Virus record (IMG/VR): IMGVR_UViG_3300045115_000083
Span: 1-42,842 of that record
DNA length: 42,842 bases
Origin: a virus
Strand: one strand, 5' to 3'
Shown here: positions 3,183 through 14,861 of the stretch, piece after piece
How the letters are laid out: the number at the start of each line of letters is the position of its first letter
Position numbering within the stretch: position 1 is the stretch's first letter
Position numbers and translations under genes: made by a program
The notes under the pieces: model-generated
What the model saw: only the letters and a program-made list of their open reading frames with translations
Databases searched by the model: none
Told to the model about the DNA's origin: nothing

Positions 3183-3610
3183 TCGCCGCACCAGCCGACG
3201 ACGTAGACCTCCCCGGCCTTGGCTTGGGCCCAGGCGTTGTCGAAGCTGGTGACTCGCACGACGGTAAGGTCGTGCCGGTGCTGTCCGCGGGCCTTCTCGG
3301 CGGCGGTGCTGGGGGCGTTGACGACGGCCACCTTGTCGGTGAGGCGCTTCCGGGTGTCGCAGCCGACGTCGGCGAGCTGCTCTCTGATGATGGTCATGGC
3401 GTCGGCCGACGTCGTGGGGTTCTGCCGGTCGTTCTGGCACCAGGCCGCCGAGCATGTCGTGGACATGGTGATCTCGTCGCCAGCAGATCCCCCGCCGGTC
3501 AGGGCTGCGCCCAGTCCGACCATCGGCAGCGTCATCAGCAGCGTGAGCGAGACCCCGTTCGCGGCCGCGCGGTACCCTGCGACCAGTACCTCTCGTGCAC
3601 CCCTCCGCAC
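3179..3610 (-). CDS. Exported or membrane-tethered protein with four cysteines
   Basis: About 143 residues from a GTG at 3610, which has GGGAGG 6 nt upstream; an ATG at 3643 is an alternative. A hydrophobic segment at about 19-38, ending in small residues and Gly, looks like a signal peptide or anchor. The remaining domain carries Cys53, Cys58, Cys84 and Cys141, spacing that would suit two disulfides outside the cell. No family recognised. It is divergent from the integrase, with only about 65 bp between start codons, so their promoters overlap. Confidence 0.65.
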   Translation of the reverse strand: MRRGAREVLVAGYRAAANGVSLTLLMTLPMVGLGAALTGGGSAGDEITMSTTCSAAWCQNDRQNPTTSADAMTIIREQLADVGCDTRKRLTDKVAVVNAPSTAAEKARGQHRHDLTVVRVTSFDNAWAQAKAGEVYVVGWCGE

Positions 3611-3636
3611 CGAAACCCTCCCAAGCGAGCCGTATC

Positions 3637-3651
3637 CCCGCATACTGCGGG
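3637..3651. promoter_or_regulatory. Palindrome in the divergent promoter region upstream of integrase
   Basis: CCCGCATACTGCGGG is a perfect 6-bp inverted repeat with a 3-bp centre, 12 bp before the integrase -10 box and over the possible upstream start of the divergent gene. Position and symmetry fit an operator for a dimeric repressor; it could also be part of the attachment site. Confidence 0.45.
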
Positions 3652-3662
3652 CTTAGGACTGT

Positions 3663-3668
3663 TATGGT
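3663..3668 (+). promoter_or_regulatory. -10 box for integrase
   Basis: TATGGT lies exactly 7 nt before the GTG at 3676, again the leaderless TANNNT-N7 arrangement. This supports GTG 3676 over ATG 3664, which would overlap the box. Confidence 0.5.
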
Positions 3669-3675
3669 ACGGCGT

Positions 3676-5091
3676 GTGAGAGCTCTTGTCTACTGCCGCG
3701 TTTCCCTTGACCCGCAAGGAGATTCACGCTCGGTCTCCGAACAGGAACGCGAATGCCGGGAATGGGCGGCACGCCAGGACTGGTCCGTGGACCGCGTCAT
3801 CTCCGAAACCGGATCCGCCTCGAGGTACGCCCGATCGACCGGTGCGCGCTCGCGGTGGGCGGAGGTGACAGCTGCTGTCGAGTCGGGCAGCTACGACATC
3901 CTCCTCACGTGGGAGGCGTCGCGGGCGACCCGTGACCTGACCGTGTATGCCGCGTTGCGGGACCTGTGCGCCAGGGCGGGGGTGCTGTGGGGGTACTCCG
4001 GCACCGTCTACGATCTCAACGCCCGTGCTGACCGGTTCCGCACCGGCATGGATGCTCTGCTGTCCGAGGACGAGGCGGCCCGCATCAGTGAGAGGGTGCA
4101 GCGGTCGGTGCGCGCCCGGGCCGCTGATGGGCGACCCCACGGGAAGATCCCGTACGGGTACCGGCGCGAGTACGACCCTGCGACCGGTGCCCTGCTCCGG
4201 CAGGTCCCTGACGAGGCGACCGCCCCGGTCGTGCGGGAGATCTACGACCGGATCCTGGCGCGCGAGGGCCTGCACGCGATCGCCGTGGACTTCACCCGCC
4301 GCGGCATCGCACCACCGCGGCCGCCACGCACACCACGAGCTGCGGACGGGCAGGCGTGGATTCCCTCGACGGTCAAGAGGATCGCGACCAACCCCACGAT
4401 GGCCGGCCATCGGGTCCACCGCGGCGCCATCGTCGCCAAGGCCGACTGGCCCGCGCTGGTCGACCAGGACACGTTCGACCAGGTGCAGGCCATCCTCACC
4501 GACCCCGCGCGCAGCACCCGCAAGGGAGACTCACGGGTACGGCATCTCCTGTCCGGGATAGCCCTGTGCGGGGCATGCACCCGCGGCCCCATGCGCGTCC
4601 TGAACAACCGCGGCCGACGGGCTTACACCTGCCTGTGGTGCCAAGGGGTCACCCGCGTCGTCGAGCCCGTCGACAACCACGTCAGGGACCGCGTCACCGC
4701 CCTGCTCGCTCTCGTCGACGTCCACCCCGACACCGGCGCTGTCGACGAGCACACCGCCCAGCTGCAGCACGACCTCACCGCCCTGCGGCAGCGCCTCGAC
4801 GCCTTCACCGACCAAGCCGCAGACGGCGGCCTCACGCCCAAGGCCCTGGCCCGGATCGAGGCCCGGCTCCTCCCCCAGATCCGCGACCTCGAGCAGCAGG
4901 TCCGCGCGAGCCGAGCCCCTGACGCACTCGCCTCCGTGGACCTCGACGACCCCCACGGCTGGTGGGACGCGGCCACTCTCGAGCAGCGCCGCGACCTGCT
5001 GCGGCGTGCGTTCCGTATCACGATCCTGCCCGCCGGCCGCGGCCGGCGAACGTTCAACCCCGACCTCATCCAGGTCGTCCCCATCTGGTGA
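3676..5091 (+). CDS. int: Large serine integrase
   Basis: About 471 residues. The N-terminal resolvase domain (about 1-140) starts RALVYCRVS, with catalytic Ser10 and the arginines expected around the active site. A recombinase domain follows (about 150-270; GKIPYGYRREYDP, then TVKRIATNPTMAGHRVHRGA), then a zinc ribbon with CGAC and CLWC pairs, and a long coiled-coil region (about 350-430). This is the complete architecture of phiC31/Bxb1-type integrases that recombine attP with attB without supercoiling. Start GTG 3676 is chosen from the -10 box; ATG 3664 is possible. The attP site could not be identified, though in such phages it usually lies beside the gene. Confidence 0.95.
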   Translation: MRALVYCRVSLDPQGDSRSVSEQERECREWAARQDWSVDRVISETGSASRYARSTGARSRWAEVTAAVESGSYDILLTWEASRATRDLTVYAALRDLCARAGVLWGYSGTVYDLNARADRFRTGMDALLSEDEAARISERVQRSVRARAADGRPHGKIPYGYRREYDPATGALLRQVPDEATAPVVREIYDRILAREGLHAIAVDFTRRGIAPPRPPRTPRAADGQAWIPSTVKRIATNPTMAGHRVHRGAIVAKADWPALVDQDTFDQVQAILTDPARSTRKGDSRVRHLLSGIALCGACTRGPMRVLNNRGRRAYTCLWCQGVTRVVEPVDNHVRDRVTALLALVDVHPDTGAVDEHTAQLQHDLTALRQRLDAFTDQAADGGLTPKALARIEARLLPQIRDLEQQVRASRAPDALASVDLDDPHGWWDAATLEQRRDLLRRAFRITILPAGRGRRTFNPDLIQVVPIW

Positions 5092-5632: not shown

Positions 5633-6163
5633 GTGAGCATCTTCGACGACGCACTCGTCTCCCTCATCCTGGGCGACTACGTGGCAGCAGAGCCGACCGG
5701 AAAGATCAACGCCATCGGTGCAGGCTTCCAGACGACCACAATCCAACCCACCGGCAACATCGGCCCGCAGTGCGTCGCGCTTCTCATCGACGTACCACAG
5801 AAGTACGCCGGTCAGCAGTACCCGGTCAGCCTCGAGCTGCGCAACGTCGACACCAACAGCGTCGTACCCATCCCCGGCACCAACCCACCCCAGGCCACCC
5901 GATTCCAACAGCTCGTGACAGCCACCCGGCCCATGGTCCCCGGCATCGCCGTACCCGACTCAGTGCCCTGCAGGCACCAGATGGTTCTCCAGATGCACGA
6001 CGGCATCCCCCTCGCCGCCGGACGTTACGCGTGGCGCGTCGAGATCGACGGCAAGCACCGCCCCAACTGGCACGCATACTTCACCGTGCTGGCGCCGCCC
6101 GCAGCACCCGTCGTCGGAGGCCCCACGGCCGCAGCTCCGACAGACCTACCCACCCTGAGCTGA
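5633..6163 (+). CDS. Beta-sandwich protein resembling DUF6941
   Basis: 176 residues from GTG 5633, 3 nt after the previous stop. The body is rich in alternating hydrophobic residues (CVALLIDVP, YPVSLELRNVDT, YAWRVEIDGKHR) typical of an immunoglobulin-like sandwich, ending in a Pro/Ala-rich tail from about residue 150. It resembles the DUF6941 group of small bacterial proteins whose role is unknown. Probably cotranscribed with the toxin-antitoxin-like pair. Confidence 0.55.
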   Translation: MSIFDDALVSLILGDYVAAEPTGKINAIGAGFQTTTIQPTGNIGPQCVALLIDVPQKYAGQQYPVSLELRNVDTNSVVPIPGTNPPQATRFQQLVTATRPMVPGIAVPDSVPCRHQMVLQMHDGIPLAAGRYAWRVEIDGKHRPNWHAYFTVLAPPAAPVVGGPTAAAPTDLPTLS

Positions 6164-6250
6164 TACCTCCCCCACCTCTGGCGCGTCGCGCTCACCCATC
6201 CCTAGACTCCGGGTCACGTCCAACCCCTGTGGACCAACCAAGGAGCACCC

Positions 6251-6364
6251 ATGTCCAAGCGCATCGCCGCCGCAGTCCTCACCGCTGTCGCGTTCTTCTC
6301 GTTCGGCGCCCTCACCTCTTCGGCCACGGCCGCGACGGCTAGCACGTGTAGCGGCTGCTGGTGA
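6251..6364 (+). CDS. Short exported peptide precursor (37 aa) with CSGCW C-terminus
   Basis: ATG 6251 follows AAGGAGC with good spacing. The 37-residue product has a classical Sec signal: basic MSKR, hydrophobic core AAAVLTAVAFFSFGALT, then Ala-X-Ala sites. Cleavage after Ala30 would release STCSGCW, or a 10-mer if after Ala27. The mature part is just a CxxC pair and a terminal tryptophan. The gene ends 15 nt before a winged-helix regulator. Precursor structure and position resemble peptide-signal/regulator pairs, but the family is unknown to me. A TAGACT box (6203-6208) upstream may be the promoter. Confidence 0.7.
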   Translation: MSKRIAAAVLTAVAFFSFGALTSSATAATASTCSGCW

Positions 6365-6379
6365 CGCATACTGCCCTTC

Positions 6380-6952
6380 GTGGATGAAGGGCAACGCGCA
6401 CTCCTCGCGGCATACTCCAACCCGGTGCGGTTGGAGATCCTTGACACCCTCCGCGCCGCGGCTGAGCCTCTGACGGCGGACGAGATCTCCGATCGTGCCC
6501 TGCGTGGCCGTGTCGGCGTTCGCAGCCACTTGGCCACACTGCACCGCAACCGTCTCGTCGCGAAGAATCACGACGGGCGCTGGGTGGCTCTGCCTCGACC
6601 TGTGGGCCTGCCGGCGCTCGCCGACGTCGCGCCGGACGACCCCGATTATCGGCTCGTCGCGCGTGCTCACGCGGTGTTGGCTGATCGCAGGTGGATGCGG
6701 CTTCGTGAGTGGAACCAGGTCAACGTCCGCCCGCAGTGGGCTGCGTGGGGACCGCACGTCATCGCTCAGGACACGGTGATGCGCTTGACCCCGCAGGAGA
6801 TGGACGAGCTCGAGCAGGCCATCGGGGATGCAGTGACCCAGTTCCGTCGCCGAGTGGTGGGCGACCGGCAGGACCCGGCCGGGTCAGAGTCGGTGTTCCT
6901 CGTCGTGTACGCCGCCCCGTTGGACGCGCTCAGGCCTCCCCGCACGTCTTGA
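6380..6952 (+). CDS. ArsR-type winged helix-turn-helix regulator
   Basis: 190 residues from GTG 6380. Residues about 5-75 form an ArsR-like winged helix (LLAAYSNPVRLEILDTL, then LTADEISDRALRGRVGVRSH, then HRNRLVAKNHDGRWVAL). Residues about 90-185 form a helical domain with conserved-looking Trp residues (LREWNQVNVRPQWAAWG) and LTPQEMDELEQAIGD, like the C-terminal sensing half of many actinobacterial ArsR-like factors. No metal-binding CxC motif is seen, so metal sensing is unlikely. It follows the exported peptide gene by 15 nt and lacks its own Shine-Dalgarno, so it is probably cotranscribed and may respond to that peptide. Confidence 0.75.
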   Translation: MDEGQRALLAAYSNPVRLEILDTLRAAAEPLTADEISDRALRGRVGVRSHLATLHRNRLVAKNHDGRWVALPRPVGLPALADVAPDDPDYRLVARAHAVLADRRWMRLREWNQVNVRPQWAAWGPHVIAQDTVMRLTPQEMDELEQAIGDAVTQFRRRVVGDRQDPAGSESVFLVVYAAPLDALRPPRTS

Positions 6953-7092: not shown

Positions 7093-7149
7093 GGGGTAGA
7101 CCGCCCGTACGTGCCCGCTCCGGCACTCCAGGGGCGGGCGGTCTACCCC
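7093..7149. terminator. Perfect 15-bp hairpin upstream of 7170
   Basis: GGGGTAGACCGCCCG (7093-7107) pairs perfectly with CGGGCGGTCTACCCC (7135-7149), with an inner GTGC/GCAC pairing in the loop. It stands 20 nt before a start codon. It can terminate transcription from the regulator operon or act as a leader structure. No U-tract follows. Confidence 0.7.
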
Positions 7150-7170: not shown

Positions 7171-7406
7171 TGACACCCGATGCCCACTCTCGGCAGGCAG
7201 CCTACGACGCGACCATGCCCGCTGACATTCTCTCGATGGACGAGCCCGGCTGGGACACCTTCGACGCCCTGGGCTACCAGCTCATCCAGCACCGTCACGT
7301 CGACGACGTCCTCGTCCTCGAGACCGAGCACCTGGTCCTCGCCCCTATCGGGTTCACTCGGCCGGAGCTTGCGCGCCGCCTCGCTCGCTGGGTGTCGGCG
7401 TGCTGA
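7170..7406 (+). CDS. Small hypothetical protein
   Basis: 78 residues from GTG 7170, with GAAAGGGGA upstream. The protein is acidic in its first half (PADILSMDEPGWDTFDALGY), followed by a hydrophobic strand-rich part (VLVLETEHLVLAPIG) and an Arg-rich helix. No family recognised. Its 3' end overlaps the convergent repressor-like gene by 53 bp (7354-7406). Confidence 0.55.
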   Translation: MTPDAHSRQAAYDATMPADILSMDEPGWDTFDALGYQLIQHRHVDDVLVLETEHLVLAPIGFTRPELARRLARWVSAC

Positions 7407-7779
7407 TACGGGTCGCCCGGACAGCGCGCACCTCTGGCTCCCGACGCCGAGCAAGGCGATCCGCGATCTCCGCCAGCAACGTCTGATCAGAGTAGGCCCC
7501 CAGCCCGTCCCGATCGGGCTCGGCGGGAACGCCTGCGCTCCGAGACGGATCGGTGGCAACTAAGCGCGTCCAGTCGCCGTCGGTGTCTGGCCAGAGTGCC
7601 CGTACGATCTTCCGCAGGAGATCCCCTCGCACACTCTCCCCGGCCTCGGCCTTGTCCCACGTCGCCGCGTTCACCTCTGCCTTCGAGTACGCGGCCCGCT
7701 TGGTGCCGAACACGGACTCGCGCCGTTGGCGGATCAGCTCCCCCAGAACGGCCCTCTCCTCGGACGCGCTGCTCGTCAT
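7354..7779 (-). CDS. Immunity-repressor-like HTH protein
   Basis: About 141 residues from ATG 7779; GTG or ATG starts up to 7812 are possible. Residues about 5-65 form an XRE-like helix-turn-helix (LGELIRQRRESVFGTKRAAY, AATWDKAEAGESVRGDLLRK, IVRALWP), a variant common in actinobacterial phage and host regulators. The C-terminal half is Arg-rich and lacks a LexA/CI-type Ser-Lys protease motif, so RecA-mediated self-cleavage is unlikely. It is divergent from a Cro-like gene across a 170-bp region carrying four TGTTCCT elements, the classical lysogeny switch layout. Confidence 0.7.
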   Translation of the reverse strand: MTSSASEERAVLGELIRQRRESVFGTKRAAYSKAEVNAATWDKAEAGESVRGDLLRKIVRALWPDTDGDWTRLVATDPSRSAGVPAEPDRDGLGAYSDQTLLAEIADRLARRREPEVRAVRATRISTPTPSERGGAQAPAE

Positions 7780-7804
7780 GGCGGCCACTGTGCCAGACAC
7801 ACCT

Positions 7805-7932
7805 AGGAACATCTACAGGCACTCAGGAACACCTGACGCCATGGAGGTGACCTGCGGGCTTACACGCTTGTGTTTCCGCTGGTCCATCGCCCAACTGTTC
7901 CTATTTTCATCTATTGCCATGTGTTCCTGAAC
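7805..7932. promoter_or_regulatory. Operator array of the lysogeny switch
   Basis: TGTTCCT occurs four times: on the minus strand at 7805-7811 and 7825-7831, and on the plus strand at 7896-7902 and 7922-7928. Each pair points in the direction of its own gene. Around them are palindromes: TCAGGAACACCTGA (7823-7836) and GTTCCTGAAC (7923-7932). A TATTTT box (7902-7907) overlaps one copy. This fits sites for the repressor and/or the Cro-like protein controlling divergent promoters. Confidence 0.65.
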
Positions 7933-7948
7933 GTGCTTAACTGTGCTC

Positions 7949-8215
7949 ATGGCAGGCACGCGAACGACCATCGAGATCAACGGTTACGCACTCAGGGAAC
8001 TACGCGTACGGTCGGGACTGGGAGTAGCCGAACTGGCCGCAGAGGTCGAAGTCCAACGCCCGTACATCGCCAAGATCGAACTCGGGCACTCGCGCCGCGT
8101 GTCACCAAGGGTCTTCGCCCGACTCGTTCTCGCGCTGGCGATCCAGGACCGTCGAGCCCTGCTTGCCAACCCGTACGCCGCCGACGTCACCACTGAAGAC
8201 CTGGTCCCGGCATGA
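7949..8215 (+). CDS. Cro-like XRE helix-turn-helix protein
   Basis: 88 residues from ATG 7949 (GTG 7943 is possible). Almost the whole protein is one HTH_XRE domain: ALRELRVRSGLGVAELAAEV, then VQRPYIAKIELGHSRRVSPR, then VFARLVLALAIQD. First gene of the rightward early operon and divergent from the repressor-like gene, so the likely role is Cro-like control of the lytic choice. Its stop overlaps the next start (ATGA at 8212). Confidence 0.75.
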   Translation: MAGTRTTIEINGYALRELRVRSGLGVAELAAEVEVQRPYIAKIELGHSRRVSPRVFARLVLALAIQDRRALLANPYAADVTTEDLVPA

Positions 8216-11837: not shown

Positions 11838-12244
11838 CCACGACCCACAACCGCGCCCGCGCCGAGCGGCTGCTCCGCGAGCACCAGGGCGACGACCTTC
11901 GCACCACGTCGACGTCGGTCTCCTGCACCTGTGGGGTGACAATCCCGGTGCACCCTGCGGCGATCGCCCGCCACATCGTCGGCCAGCTGCTGCTGGCGGA
12001 CCTGCTCCGACCGGACCCGACCGGGCCGCTGCCGCTGATCGCGTTGCAGGACATGGGCCCCGGTGAGGTTGTGTTCGACCGGGGCGGCCAACCGTGGATG
12101 TGTTGCGGGTTCGTTGACGACACCAGTGAGGCGTTGTGGGTGTCGTACGCCGAGGGCGTTCCGGACGAGCTGTGCACCTCTGACCTGCACGCTGAGCGGT
12201 CGCCGTTGGCCACGGACCGGGCGAAGGCGGGGTGCGGGTCGTGA
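11834..12244 (+). CDS. Hypothetical early protein
   Basis: 136 residues, ATGA overlap. Has SCTCG near residue 30 and a strand-rich middle (GEVVFDRGGQPWMCCGFVDD). The second half resembles a small beta domain. No family recognised. Precedes the tandem ParB genes. Confidence 0.5.
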   Translation: MTTTHNRARAERLLREHQGDDLRTTSTSVSCTCGVTIPVHPAAIARHIVGQLLLADLLRPDPTGPLPLIALQDMGPGEVVFDRGGQPWMCCGFVDDTSEALWVSYAEGVPDELCTSDLHAERSPLATDRAKAGCGS

Positions 12245-13263
12245 GGCATGTGATGACCCCTCAGATGGAAGCCGAGATCCTGCGCCTGATCGTGCAGGGC
12301 AAGATGTTGGGCGCGATCGCGCAGCAGCTGGCGCTGTCGTTGTCGCGCGTGGACACGGTCGCACGCGAGCATGGCTGGCCGGACATGGCCGCGGTCGGCC
12401 GCTCCCTCGAGGAGCTCGACGAAGACAACGACGCTTCGACGTTGGAGCCGACTAACCCTGACCCCGGCGCGCAACACCTTCCTGACGGCAAGACCTTGCA
12501 GATGGTGCCGGTCGATGAGTTGCACCCGGACCCGGACAACCCGCGCGAGAAACTGACGGGGATCGAGGAGCTCGCCGAGTCGATCGACGCCCAAGGCCTG
12601 ATCCAGCCGATCGTGGCTCGCCGCCGCGGTGGCCGTCTGGTCGTGGTTGCCGGGCACCGCCGCCTCGCCGCGGTGGAGCTCCTGCAGTGGGCCACCGTCG
12701 AGACGGTTATCACCAAGGACATGCCGTCCGACGACGTGCTGGCGAAGATGCTCGTCGAGAACGGTCAGCGCGCCGGCCTGGACCCGATCGAGGAGGGCCG
12801 CGCCCTGGCTCGTCTGAAGGCCACCACCGGCAAGTCCAGCGCGGAGGTGGGCCGAGCAGTCGGCCGTTCCTTGTCGCACGTCGAAGGCCGCCTGCGTCTG
12901 CTGTCGTTGCCGCCGAGCGTGCAGGAGAAGGTCCGCACCGGACAGATGAACATCGGTGAGGCCGTCGAACGATCCCGCGCGGATTCCGGTCGTGCGCAAG
13001 GCCCACGGTCCAGCTACCGCTTCCACCTCGGCGACGGTCACCCGCTCGCATCCAAGGCCCGCGCCCGATGCCGGCAGATGCACCGGCAGACGCGGAAGGT
13101 CGGCGCCGTCGCGTGCGGCGAGTGCTGGGAGACGGTGATCCGCGCGAACGAGCGGGAGACCCTGCACAACCACTCAGCACAGACGGGCCGGTGCGCCCTG
13201 TGCCAGACCCCAACTGATGACACGGATACGTCAGCAGACCCGACAGGAGACCAAACCCGATGA
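12241..13263 (+). CDS. ParB-domain protein 1
   Basis: 340 residues from GTG 12241 (GTGA overlap). An N-terminal helix-turn-helix-like part (about 5-50) precedes a ParB/Srx-type domain: DELHPDPDNPREKL (92-105), VVVAGHRRLAAVE (134-146) and ENGQRAGLDPIEEGRAL (173-189), then a second DNA-binding helical region and a C-terminal Cys/His part (CGECW ... CALCQ). GHRRLAA and the following box are the conserved ParB nucleotide-binding signatures. In phages such proteins act in DNA binding, partition or as nucleases; which one is not visible. No ParA partner is present. Confidence 0.75.
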   Translation: MRHVMTPQMEAEILRLIVQGKMLGAIAQQLALSLSRVDTVAREHGWPDMAAVGRSLEELDEDNDASTLEPTNPDPGAQHLPDGKTLQMVPVDELHPDPDNPREKLTGIEELAESIDAQGLIQPIVARRRGGRLVVVAGHRRLAAVELLQWATVETVITKDMPSDDVLAKMLVENGQRAGLDPIEEGRALARLKATTGKSSAEVGRAVGRSLSHVEGRLRLLSLPPSVQEKVRTGQMNIGEAVERSRADSGRAQGPRSSYRFHLGDGHPLASKARARCRQMHRQTRKVGAVACGECWETVIRANERETLHNHSAQTGRCALCQTPTDDTDTSADPTGDQTR

Positions 13264-14861
13264 GCCCCAACGCAACTGACACGGCACAGGTGCAGTACCT
13301 CGACCTGAAACCGTCCCTGATCGCGCAGCACCCGGACAACCCGCGTCGCGACGTGGGTGACATCTCGGATCTGACGGCGTCCGCGAAGGAACGCGGCATC
13401 CTCGAGCCGTTGATCGTAGCCCCGGCGTACGACGGCATGACGAAGTCGTTGGGAAAGGCCGAGTTCCTGTTGATCGCCGGCCACCGGCGTCTCGCGGCCG
13501 CGAAGAAGGCCCGCCTGTCCACGGTGCCCGTCGTGCTGCGCAACGACTGGACGTCCCGCGGCGACCAGGTGTCCGCGATGCTGATCGAGAACCTGCACCG
13601 CGCCGACCTGTCCCCCATCGAGGAGGGTGAGGGCTACCAGCTGGTCATGGAGGTGGACGGCCTCACCCAGGCCAAGGTTGCCGACCGGGTCCAGCAGCCA
13701 GCGAAACGCGTCCGCGACCGGGTGAAGCTCGTCAAGCTCCCCAAGGGTGTGCAGGACCGCATCCACGACGGCCAGGTCACCCTGACCGAAGCGATCGAGG
13801 CCGCGGCGTTCGCGTCCGACGGGGACACCATGGCCCGCCTGGAGAAGGCCGCCGGCACCCGCAACTTCGCCGTGGAGCTCGAGGCCGCCAAGGCCCGCCG
13901 CAAGGCCGAGCAGGACTGGCGCTCCCTGCTGAAGCAGATCCGCGACGCCGGCTACGTCGAGCTCGAACCAGTCAAGCAGGACCCGGCCGCCGAACCCGGC
14001 ACCCGCGTCGACGGCGCCCGCCAACGCAGGAGCATCCCCGGCCTGGGCGGCGGCTACGCCTGGCGTCTTGAAGACGCATGGGCTGAGGAGAAGCGCCTCC
14101 ACGCCGACTGCCCACACAGGGCCGTCGTCATCACGGATGAGAGCTCCCCCGGCCGCGGCCACACACGCGGCCTGGAGTTTCTCTGCACCAAGCCCGAGGT
14201 CCACGCGGCACAGGCCCAGACCGGCCGCGACAACACCCGCCACGTGGTCGACACCAGCCTCCCGGAGACGGACGAGGAACGAGCCGCACGCCAAGCCCAG
14301 GAGGCGGCCCGCGCCGAGCAGGAGCGGGACCGCGCGGACCTGCAGTCGAAGCTCGACGCGGCCGCGACGGTGCGCCGCCGTTGGGTCTCGGACGTGCTGC
14401 ACCACAAGACCGGCGACGTCGACCTCGCCAAGCGGCTCCTGCTCGAGCACGCCCGAGCCGACTGGACCGAGAGCAACATCATCGGCTGCGCCACGAGCAT
14501 CTGGGAGCGGGGCGCGCTGCTCGCGTGGTTGCGCATCGACGAGGACGTCCCCGGCGAGGACGTCCCTGCCGTGGTCAGTGACAAGCTCAACAAGCTCACC
14601 CTGCCGGCGCTCGCGATGCTGACCCGCATCGTGTGGTTCGCAGACGTGGAGCGTGGCATGACGGAGCCCCACCGCGAGTGGCCCGCCACGGACGAGGACG
14701 TGGACTGGTTCCGGATCCTCACGGACGAGTTCGCGTACCCGTGGTCGGACTTCGAGCGGGACCACTTCGGCCTCGACGCGGACGGGCATGTCCCCTCGGT
14801 CACCGAAGAGGACGACGCTGACGTGCCGGCTGACGACGGTGACGCGGAGGCGGGCCAGTGA
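13260..14861 (+). CDS. ParB-domain protein 2, with long C-terminal extension
   Basis: 533 residues, ATGA overlap with ParB protein 1. The N-terminal third has the same ParB signatures: AQHPDNPRRD (22-31), LLIAGHRRLAAAKK (70-83), ENLHRADLSPIEEGEGYQ (110-127), followed by a helix-turn-helix (QAKVADRVQQPAKRVRDR). The C-terminal half is different: a Cys/His patch (HADCPH), an acidic/Arg coiled coil (EERAARQAQEAARAEQERDR), and a helical module of unknown family. Similar two-part ParB-like proteins occur in actinophages. Possible roles are DNA binding in replication or gene regulation. Confidence 0.75.
   Translation: MSPNATDTAQVQYLDLKPSLIAQHPDNPRRDVGDISDLTASAKERGILEPLIVAPAYDGMTKSLGKAEFLLIAGHRRLAAAKKARLSTVPVVLRNDWTSRGDQVSAMLIENLHRADLSPIEEGEGYQLVMEVDGLTQAKVADRVQQPAKRVRDRVKLVKLPKGVQDRIHDGQVTLTEAIEAAAFASDGDTMARLEKAAGTRNFAVELEAAKARRKAEQDWRSLLKQIRDAGYVELEPVKQDPAAEPGTRVDGARQRRSIPGLGGGYAWRLEDAWAEEKRLHADCPHRAVVITDESSPGRGHTRGLEFLCTKPEVHAAQAQTGRDNTRHVVDTSLPETDEERAARQAQEAARAEQERDRADLQSKLDAAATVRRRWVSDVLHHKTGDVDLAKRLLLEHARADWTESNIIGCATSIWERGALLAWLRIDEDVPGEDVPAVVSDKLNKLTLPALAMLTRIVWFADVERGMTEPHREWPATDEDVDWFRILTDEFAYPWSDFERDHFGLDADGHVPSVTEEDDADVPADDGDAEAGQ

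Follow-up and report, generated by a model that had tools for sequence, protein, structure and literature searches.

The window, by which we mean the whole stretch of DNA analysed here, is an IMG/VR virus record of 42,842 bases with endolysin, holin, terminase and portal genes. The host of this phage probably belongs to the Micrococcales, since the relatives of its terminase include proteins from a Micrococcales MAG (67%) and from a Serinicoccus sediminis prophage (63%). The locus of interest is a short peptide gene followed on the same strand by the gene of a winged-helix regulator. An earlier note on this DNA had placed the pair between integrase and immunity repressor, and indeed it is flanked by a serine integrase gene (3595-5091; phrog_95, 5.5e-92) on one side and the gene of an HTH_31 XRE protein (7943-8215) on the other, with a further weak HTH ORF at 7354-7812 (-). 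The features of the locus are as follows.

6203-6208, plus strand: candidate -10 box TAGACT of a putative peptide promoter, of the TANNNT form, read from the sequence.
6240-6245, plus strand: Shine-Dalgarno sequence AAGGAG of the peptide gene, graded strong.
6251-6364, plus strand: ORF of a putative exported peptide precursor, 37 aa, with an STCSGCW end and with bacterial counterparts beside 13 regulators.
6251-6331, plus strand: Sec-type signal sequence by inspection, residues 1-27, up to the first AxA site.
6347-6361, plus strand: C-x-x-C-W end of the peptide (CSGCW); the terminal CxxC is invariant across the family.
6367-6372, plus strand: candidate -10 box CATACT, 7 nt before the GTG of the regulator; a TANNNT box lies 6-8 nt upstream in all 13 bacterial relatives.
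6380-6952, plus strand: ORF of the winged-helix regulator, 190 aa, GTG start, grouping with the peptide-linked clade.
6380-6595, plus strand: wHTH domain, approximately residues 1-72, with HTH_20 at residues 13-60; family-profile positions 4-76 match ArsR structures.
6596-6949, plus strand: C-terminal domain, proposed as the peptide-sensing part; its divergence tracks the peptide end.

The translation of the ORF at 6251-6364 (+) is MSKRIAAAVLTAVAFFSFGALTSSATAATASTCSGCW. The 37-residue Sec-type precursor described earlier is confirmed as an ORF with AAGGAG upstream, and inspection together with a hydropathy rule reveals the expected signal features: a KR start, a hydrophobic core and two Ala-X-Ala sites, A25-T-A27 and A28-T-A30, the second of which ends at 6340. 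Cleavage after the first site is predicted to give ATASTCSGCW (10 aa), and cleavage after the second STCSGCW (7 aa). Because both sites exist, the heptapeptide proposed before stands as one of two options and not as the sole product. The phage peptide carries one extra residue (W) beyond its CxxC. A sigma-70 consensus scan and a terminator scan were both empty. Immediately upstream of the peptide gene, positions 5633-6163 encode a 176-aa protein that scores 26.9 bits against DUF6941, where the Pfam cut-off is 27.

The regulator ORF begins 15 nt past the stop codon of the peptide gene. An ArsR-type winged helix is present in its product, though the scores fall under curated cut-offs: HTH_20 (PF12840) matches at 1.2e-5, below its cut-off, and NF033788 at 4.6e-8 with 32.8 bits against a cut-off of 55. 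In a 16-member family profile, the first ~70 residues match solved ArsR-family structures, and the C-terminal 118 residues have no sequence match in the PDB. An AlphaFold2 single-sequence model (mean pLDDT 34.6) was set aside. The protein had been described as ArsR-like without a CxC motif; in fact, it contains no cysteine at all, and most regulators of its clade are likewise cysteine-free, so that an ArsR-type metal site made of cysteines is absent.

No Shine-Dalgarno sequence precedes the GTG at 6380. Since a TANNNT box recurs 6-8 nt before the start in 13 of 13 bacterial relatives, and the phage has CATACT at this place, the regulator probably has its own promoter and a leaderless transcript, and this would account for the missing Shine-Dalgarno sequence. 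We also note an 8-bp inverted repeat, TGCCCTTC-GTGGAT-GAAGGGCA, at 6372-6393 and centred on the regulator start codon, possibly an operator or an RNA hairpin.

Bacterial relatives of the locus were picked by regulator similarity alone, the peptide playing no part in the choice. With the phage regulator protein as sole query, 396 genomes of the host order yielded 18 weak matches, two of which (L118 and L128) resemble the phage protein in the C-terminal part. At both, a small divergent ORF beside the regulator combines a signal of the Sec type with a C-terminus rich in Cys (the two ends are ...ARAGCWWC and ...HYGHCAVC). A profile built from the three regulators (phage, L118 and L128) and run on the 396 order genomes and 395 genomes of the class set four strong bacterial members apart from ordinary HTH_20 proteins, and all four have the peptide. 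Among 188 genomes of the family that holds Yimella, 13 had regulator matches beyond the 1e-25 threshold, at 15 loci in total, and an exported-type, CxxC-ended ORF of 36-41 aa lies beside the regulator in 13 of these 15 close loci, with ends such as GHCAVC, GRCTMC, SCGWC, GCWWC and NCSFC.

The linkage was scored by a fixed rule: an ORF with an ATG start, 30-50 aa, K/R near the start, a hydrophobic core and a terminal CxxC or CxxC plus one residue, located no more than 700 nt from the regulator start. The exact CxxC terminus is found in 12 of the 14 positive loci; the phage peptide (W) and that of one plasmid-like copy (R) have a further residue, and both were known when the rule was made to permit it. 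In all, 82 regulator loci were scored, the 14 positive ones being that of the phage and 13 from bacteria; the negatives number 68 and comprise two radical-SAM loci, described below, and 66 more distant HTH_20 loci, beside none of which a rule-matching ORF was seen (0/66). The rule found nothing in 1.59 Mb of other fetched DNA or in 6 Mb of random sequence generated by a first-order model from the dinucleotides of the window, while a relaxed version (Cys in the last 8 residues) gave 26 matches in the 6 Mb of random sequence. In the whole window, the phage peptide is the single ORF that matches, and it lies within the 700 nt of its regulator. We therefore find the peptide gene conserved beside regulator homologues, in 13 of 13 bacterial members of the close clade, as the earlier reading of the pair would have it.

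Peptide gene and regulator are divergently oriented at 12 of the 13 bacterial loci. The remaining one, the plasmid-like L211, has both genes on the same strand and 40 nt apart, as in the phage. One genome (G279) holds three tandem copies of the exported-type CxxC peptide gene (L137, 2169-2288, 2375-2494 and 2581-2700), two of them identical in DNA. The relative orientation of the two genes bears on the idea that the short ORF is a leader peptide controlling the downstream regulator by stalling or attenuation, with no export purpose of its own. Such a leader would suit the ORF just upstream on the same strand in the phage and in one relative, as well as the Cys and Trp codons at its end; it sits poorly with the apparent leaderless promoter of the regulator, and it is impossible at the 12 bacterial loci because the peptide gene is divergent there. 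We set it aside as extremely improbable.

In the regulator tree, the phage protein groups with regulators that have a linked peptide (12 rows, 98/94), its neighbours being L212 and L216, the two with CGWC-ended peptides, and all 14 fall on one side of a branch at 94/33. The phage branch is very long (1.68), and an AU test does not separate a place inside the 13 from one just outside them (p 0.46). An HMM of the 13, with the phage excluded, scores the phage regulator at 94.9 bits, and one made from generic proteins gives it 78.2, which suggests that it is closer to the peptide-linked clade, if not by much.

Peptide ends track the regulator subclades: HC[AQ]VC occurs at six loci, RC[ITA][MI]C at three and CGWC at two, while GCWWC and NCSFC form one pair and CSGCW is that of the phage. 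In partial Mantel tests, peptide-end distance correlates with the regulator C-terminal domain once the wHTH is removed (r 0.40, p 0.004-0.006), and shows no signal with the wHTH once the C-terminal domain is removed (p ~0.2). The signal sequence behaves the other way round, following the wHTH (r 0.43, p 0.0015) and not the C-terminal domain (p 0.24). The p-values are indicative only, given 10-14 related pairs, and the co-variation is robust to omitting the phage, to thinning and to other domain limits. Two halves of a peptide tracking two halves of a protein would be hard to obtain from shared ancestry alone, and the co-variation anticipated between peptide end and C-terminal domain is thus seen in these loci.

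CxxC is a classic metal and redox motif, and for a linear pheromone it is unusual that this motif does not vary, which could point to an antimicrobial function or to one in metal or redox chemistry. Under one such explanation, the exported CxxC peptide would bind a thiophilic metal or cycle as a dithiol outside the cell, with the regulator sensing the metal or thiol state. The motif type and the ArsR type of the wHTH would fit, and yet the residues around the CxxC vary widely and follow the regulator C-terminal domain, and no metal-resistance genes were seen beside the loci. Because the regulator is without cysteine, as are most members of its clade, we downgrade the metalloregulator reading and regard the metal or redox pair as distinctly improbable.

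The two close loci without an exported-type peptide, L214 (in contig L219) and L218 (in contig L220), have in the same divergent slot an ORF of 32-33 aa with a good Shine-Dalgarno sequence, followed by a radical-SAM gene. The short ORFs read MDPALLAKLISMGVEVPPILVQTSAIGGNCSFR and VDPALIQALLELGVQLQSPYKTVAPLVVCAMR and end in NCSFR or VCAMR.

L219, 5524-5625, minus strand: short precursor.
L219, 4391-5617, minus strand: radical SAM.
L220, 8528-8626, plus strand: short precursor.
L220, 8642-9799, plus strand: radical SAM.

The best matches of the radical-SAM genes are RiPP maturases, far below cut-offs. These loci resemble radical-SAM RiPP clusters, since at both of them the sister regulator lies next to a radical-SAM gene and a CxxR-ended short precursor; they differ from the phage copy, which has no maturase and has a Sec signal instead. 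Since CxxR-ended precursors occupy the peptide slot, and NCSFR resembles the NCSFC of the L217 exported-type peptide, the regulators of this branch share one kind of partner, a peptide end that contains Cys. Upstream of a third related maturase (L231, 1405-2631), where no regulator was seen, an ORF of 34 aa ends in CGANNIGC.

Many cassette loci lie on plasmid-like contigs, the plasmid status of most copies being judged by gene content, and an MFS gene (MFS_1, 1.5e-19) usually follows the regulator. A complete circular Yimella plasmid of 41.8 kb carries the peptide gene (WP_255427708.1, annotated 'hypothetical') divergent from the regulator (WP_188061742.1), then the MFS gene (WP_188061741.1); ssb and genes of transfer type lie close by. 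The gene order recurs in several other copies, where a conserved protein is encoded upstream and the gene of a small HTH protein converges from the opposite side. The upstream protein, shared by L132, L194 and L221-L226, is 360-470 aa long, often starts MLPT.P and has CAPEHA and WHQDDRG-type motifs; it is possibly a Rep. The small HTH proteins are EspR-like by eye, and neither they nor the upstream protein have a Pfam match. Actinobacterial HTH_20/ArsR-like regulators with an MFS gene are widespread, and the CxxC cassette shares with them the full-length regulator family and, on plasmids, the MFS gene after the regulator. The CxxC clade is however a separate branch with a gained peptide gene, and its phage copy is without MFS.

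The main rival is a bacteriocin-type cassette with an autorepressor. In it, a secreted antimicrobial or self-toxic peptide, in effect a small bacteriocin, would be exported or immunised against by the MFS protein and sensed by the ArsR-like autorepressor in the manner of SdpC/SdpI/SdpR, the phage copy being a moron. Consistent with this are the MFS gene that immediately follows the regulator in the majority of plasmid copies, the likeness of the sister loci to RiPP clusters and a weak SdpR-family match of the regulator (1.7e-5; NF033789, 24.7 bits against a cut-off of 100). In SdpC-SdpI-SdpR of Bacillus subtilis, too, a secreted Cys-containing peptide stands beside an ArsR-type autorepressor. 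However, neither an MFS nor an immunity-like gene adjoins the phage pair, and MFS is absent at three chromosomal copies (G247, G279 and G889), which likewise have no immunity-like gene adjoining the pair. Moreover, the mature peptides would be of just 7-16 aa, and the peptide end tracks the C-terminal domain, as would be expected of a ligand no less than of a toxin. The cassette also differs from Sdp in having no SdpI-like membrane protein, a far shorter precursor and a regulator with a large C-terminal domain; no match to an SdpI-type membrane protein or an SdpC-type toxin was found for the peptide or the tested neighbours. We consider the bacteriocin-type cassette unlikely, at perhaps a one-in-several chance.

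Among phages, no second case of the pair has come up so far. Queried directly (seeds, tblastn), the phage regulator gave no relatives in GenBank phages, IMG/VR or genome contigs and nothing useful among plasmids, as the family is too divergent for seeds. A TCSGCW-stop DNA pattern had 54 matches across IMG/VR, and no signal-peptide ORF went with any of them. Of the phages closest by terminase (G002 at ~69%, G003 and G004), none has a regulator match, and the pair is absent from the integrase-to-early region of G002 and from the flank of the nearest integrase, MT835531. Similarly, HCAVC-type regulators scanned against IMG/VR gave no match, and two clade members searched against GenBank phages gave no pair. 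The search of other phages proposed earlier gave no further carrier of the pair in GenBank phages, IMG/VR or the nearest relatives.

This absence from the nearest phage relatives, the very long branch and the displacement of the phage motif by one residue from the end would all suit a relic, taken from a plasmid cassette by recombination and now decayed or idle, the family being real and the phage pair inert. Against decay, both frames are intact, the Shine-Dalgarno sequence is strong, the codon pattern of the regulator is normal (GC3 0.80 versus GC2 0.49), and the CxxC and the conserved C-terminal residues of the family are retained in the phage. A relic therefore seems rather improbable to us.

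On balance, and with confidence barely above even, we favour an undescribed signalling cassette of Micrococcales, made up of a peptide and a regulator, of which the phage pair would be one member. The precursor would be exported by Sec and cleaved at AxA to a peptide of ~7-16 aa, the key part of which would be the terminal C-x-x-C. This peptide would re-enter the cell and bind the C-terminal domain of the winged-helix regulator; no importer gene adjoins the phage pair. Binding would alter the regulator's grip on nearby promoters, namely its own and that of the peptide gene, on plasmids also that of the MFS gene, and in the phage perhaps the lysogeny region. Position makes a lysogeny role plausible; equally possible is that the phage pair senses related plasmids or sister prophages in the same hosts. 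The initial idea of a secreted peptide with a cytoplasmic receptor gains real support, because the linkage is conserved and the peptide end co-varies with the C-terminal domain; its phage setting does not carry over to the family, which is mainly plasmid and chromosomal.

The cassette appears arbitrium-like in logic and not RRNPP. RRNPP receptors are proteins of 250-500 aa with tetratricopeptide repeats, and their propeptides are small (10-100 aa; 21-50 aa for validated ones), Sec-exported and encoded beside the receptor (PMC10075063). The CxxC precursors, at 36-41 aa, resemble validated propeptides in length, and that of the phage has the propeptide traits: 37 aa, 15 nt upstream of the regulator, Sec-type signal. 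As in arbitrium (AimP-AimR) and other RRNPP systems of Bacillota, neighbouring genes encode a precursor of ~40 aa with a variable C-terminal end and a cytoplasmic protein that binds DNA, and such pairs occur on phage as well as on plasmids and chromosomes. The receptor, in contrast, would be a 190-aa ArsR-like winged-helix protein with just a weak wHTH match in Pfam; the peptide gene is mostly divergent and the CxxC invariant. Since there is no TPR, the protein is short and the phylum is another one (Actinomycetota), we do not assign the cassette to RRNPP. Peptide signalling by cytoplasmic receptors has been described for Bacillota, signals in Actinomycetota being described as typically enzyme-made small molecules (PMC10075063). 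In a 2026 phage-communication review, a term search shows arbitrium-like systems of Bacillus and Bacillales, with actinobacteria unmentioned (PMC13389391). We found no earlier description of the cassette in the open-access literature, a body outside which most subscription journals fall.

More tentatively, and at somewhat less than even confidence, the loci may represent a non-RRNPP class of peptide pheromones, in which ArsR/HTH_20-type cytoplasmic receptors would read short CxxC-ended (sometimes radical-SAM-made, CxxR-ended) peptides. Within a single actinobacterial group, the class would be common to plasmids, chromosomes and one or more temperate phages, with mobile elements sensing kin or rivals and adjusting transfer or lysogeny. 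If true, a compact two-gene cassette would give Actinomycetota an arbitrium-like layer with an unrelated receptor, on plasmids, chromosomes and phage. With 14 peptide-receptor pairs from nature, motifs of several types and a variant that uses radical SAM, the loci make specificity testable by simple swaps in laboratory strains.

Two further observations concern the phage itself. Downstream of the regulator lies a perfect 15-bp inverted repeat, GGGGTAGACCGCCCG / CGGGCGGTCTACCCC, at 7093-7107 / 7135-7149 with a 27-nt loop, a candidate terminator, operator or attachment site. Positions 12232-14861 encode two adjacent ParB-like proteins (phrog_6218 and relatives) in this integrase-bearing phage.
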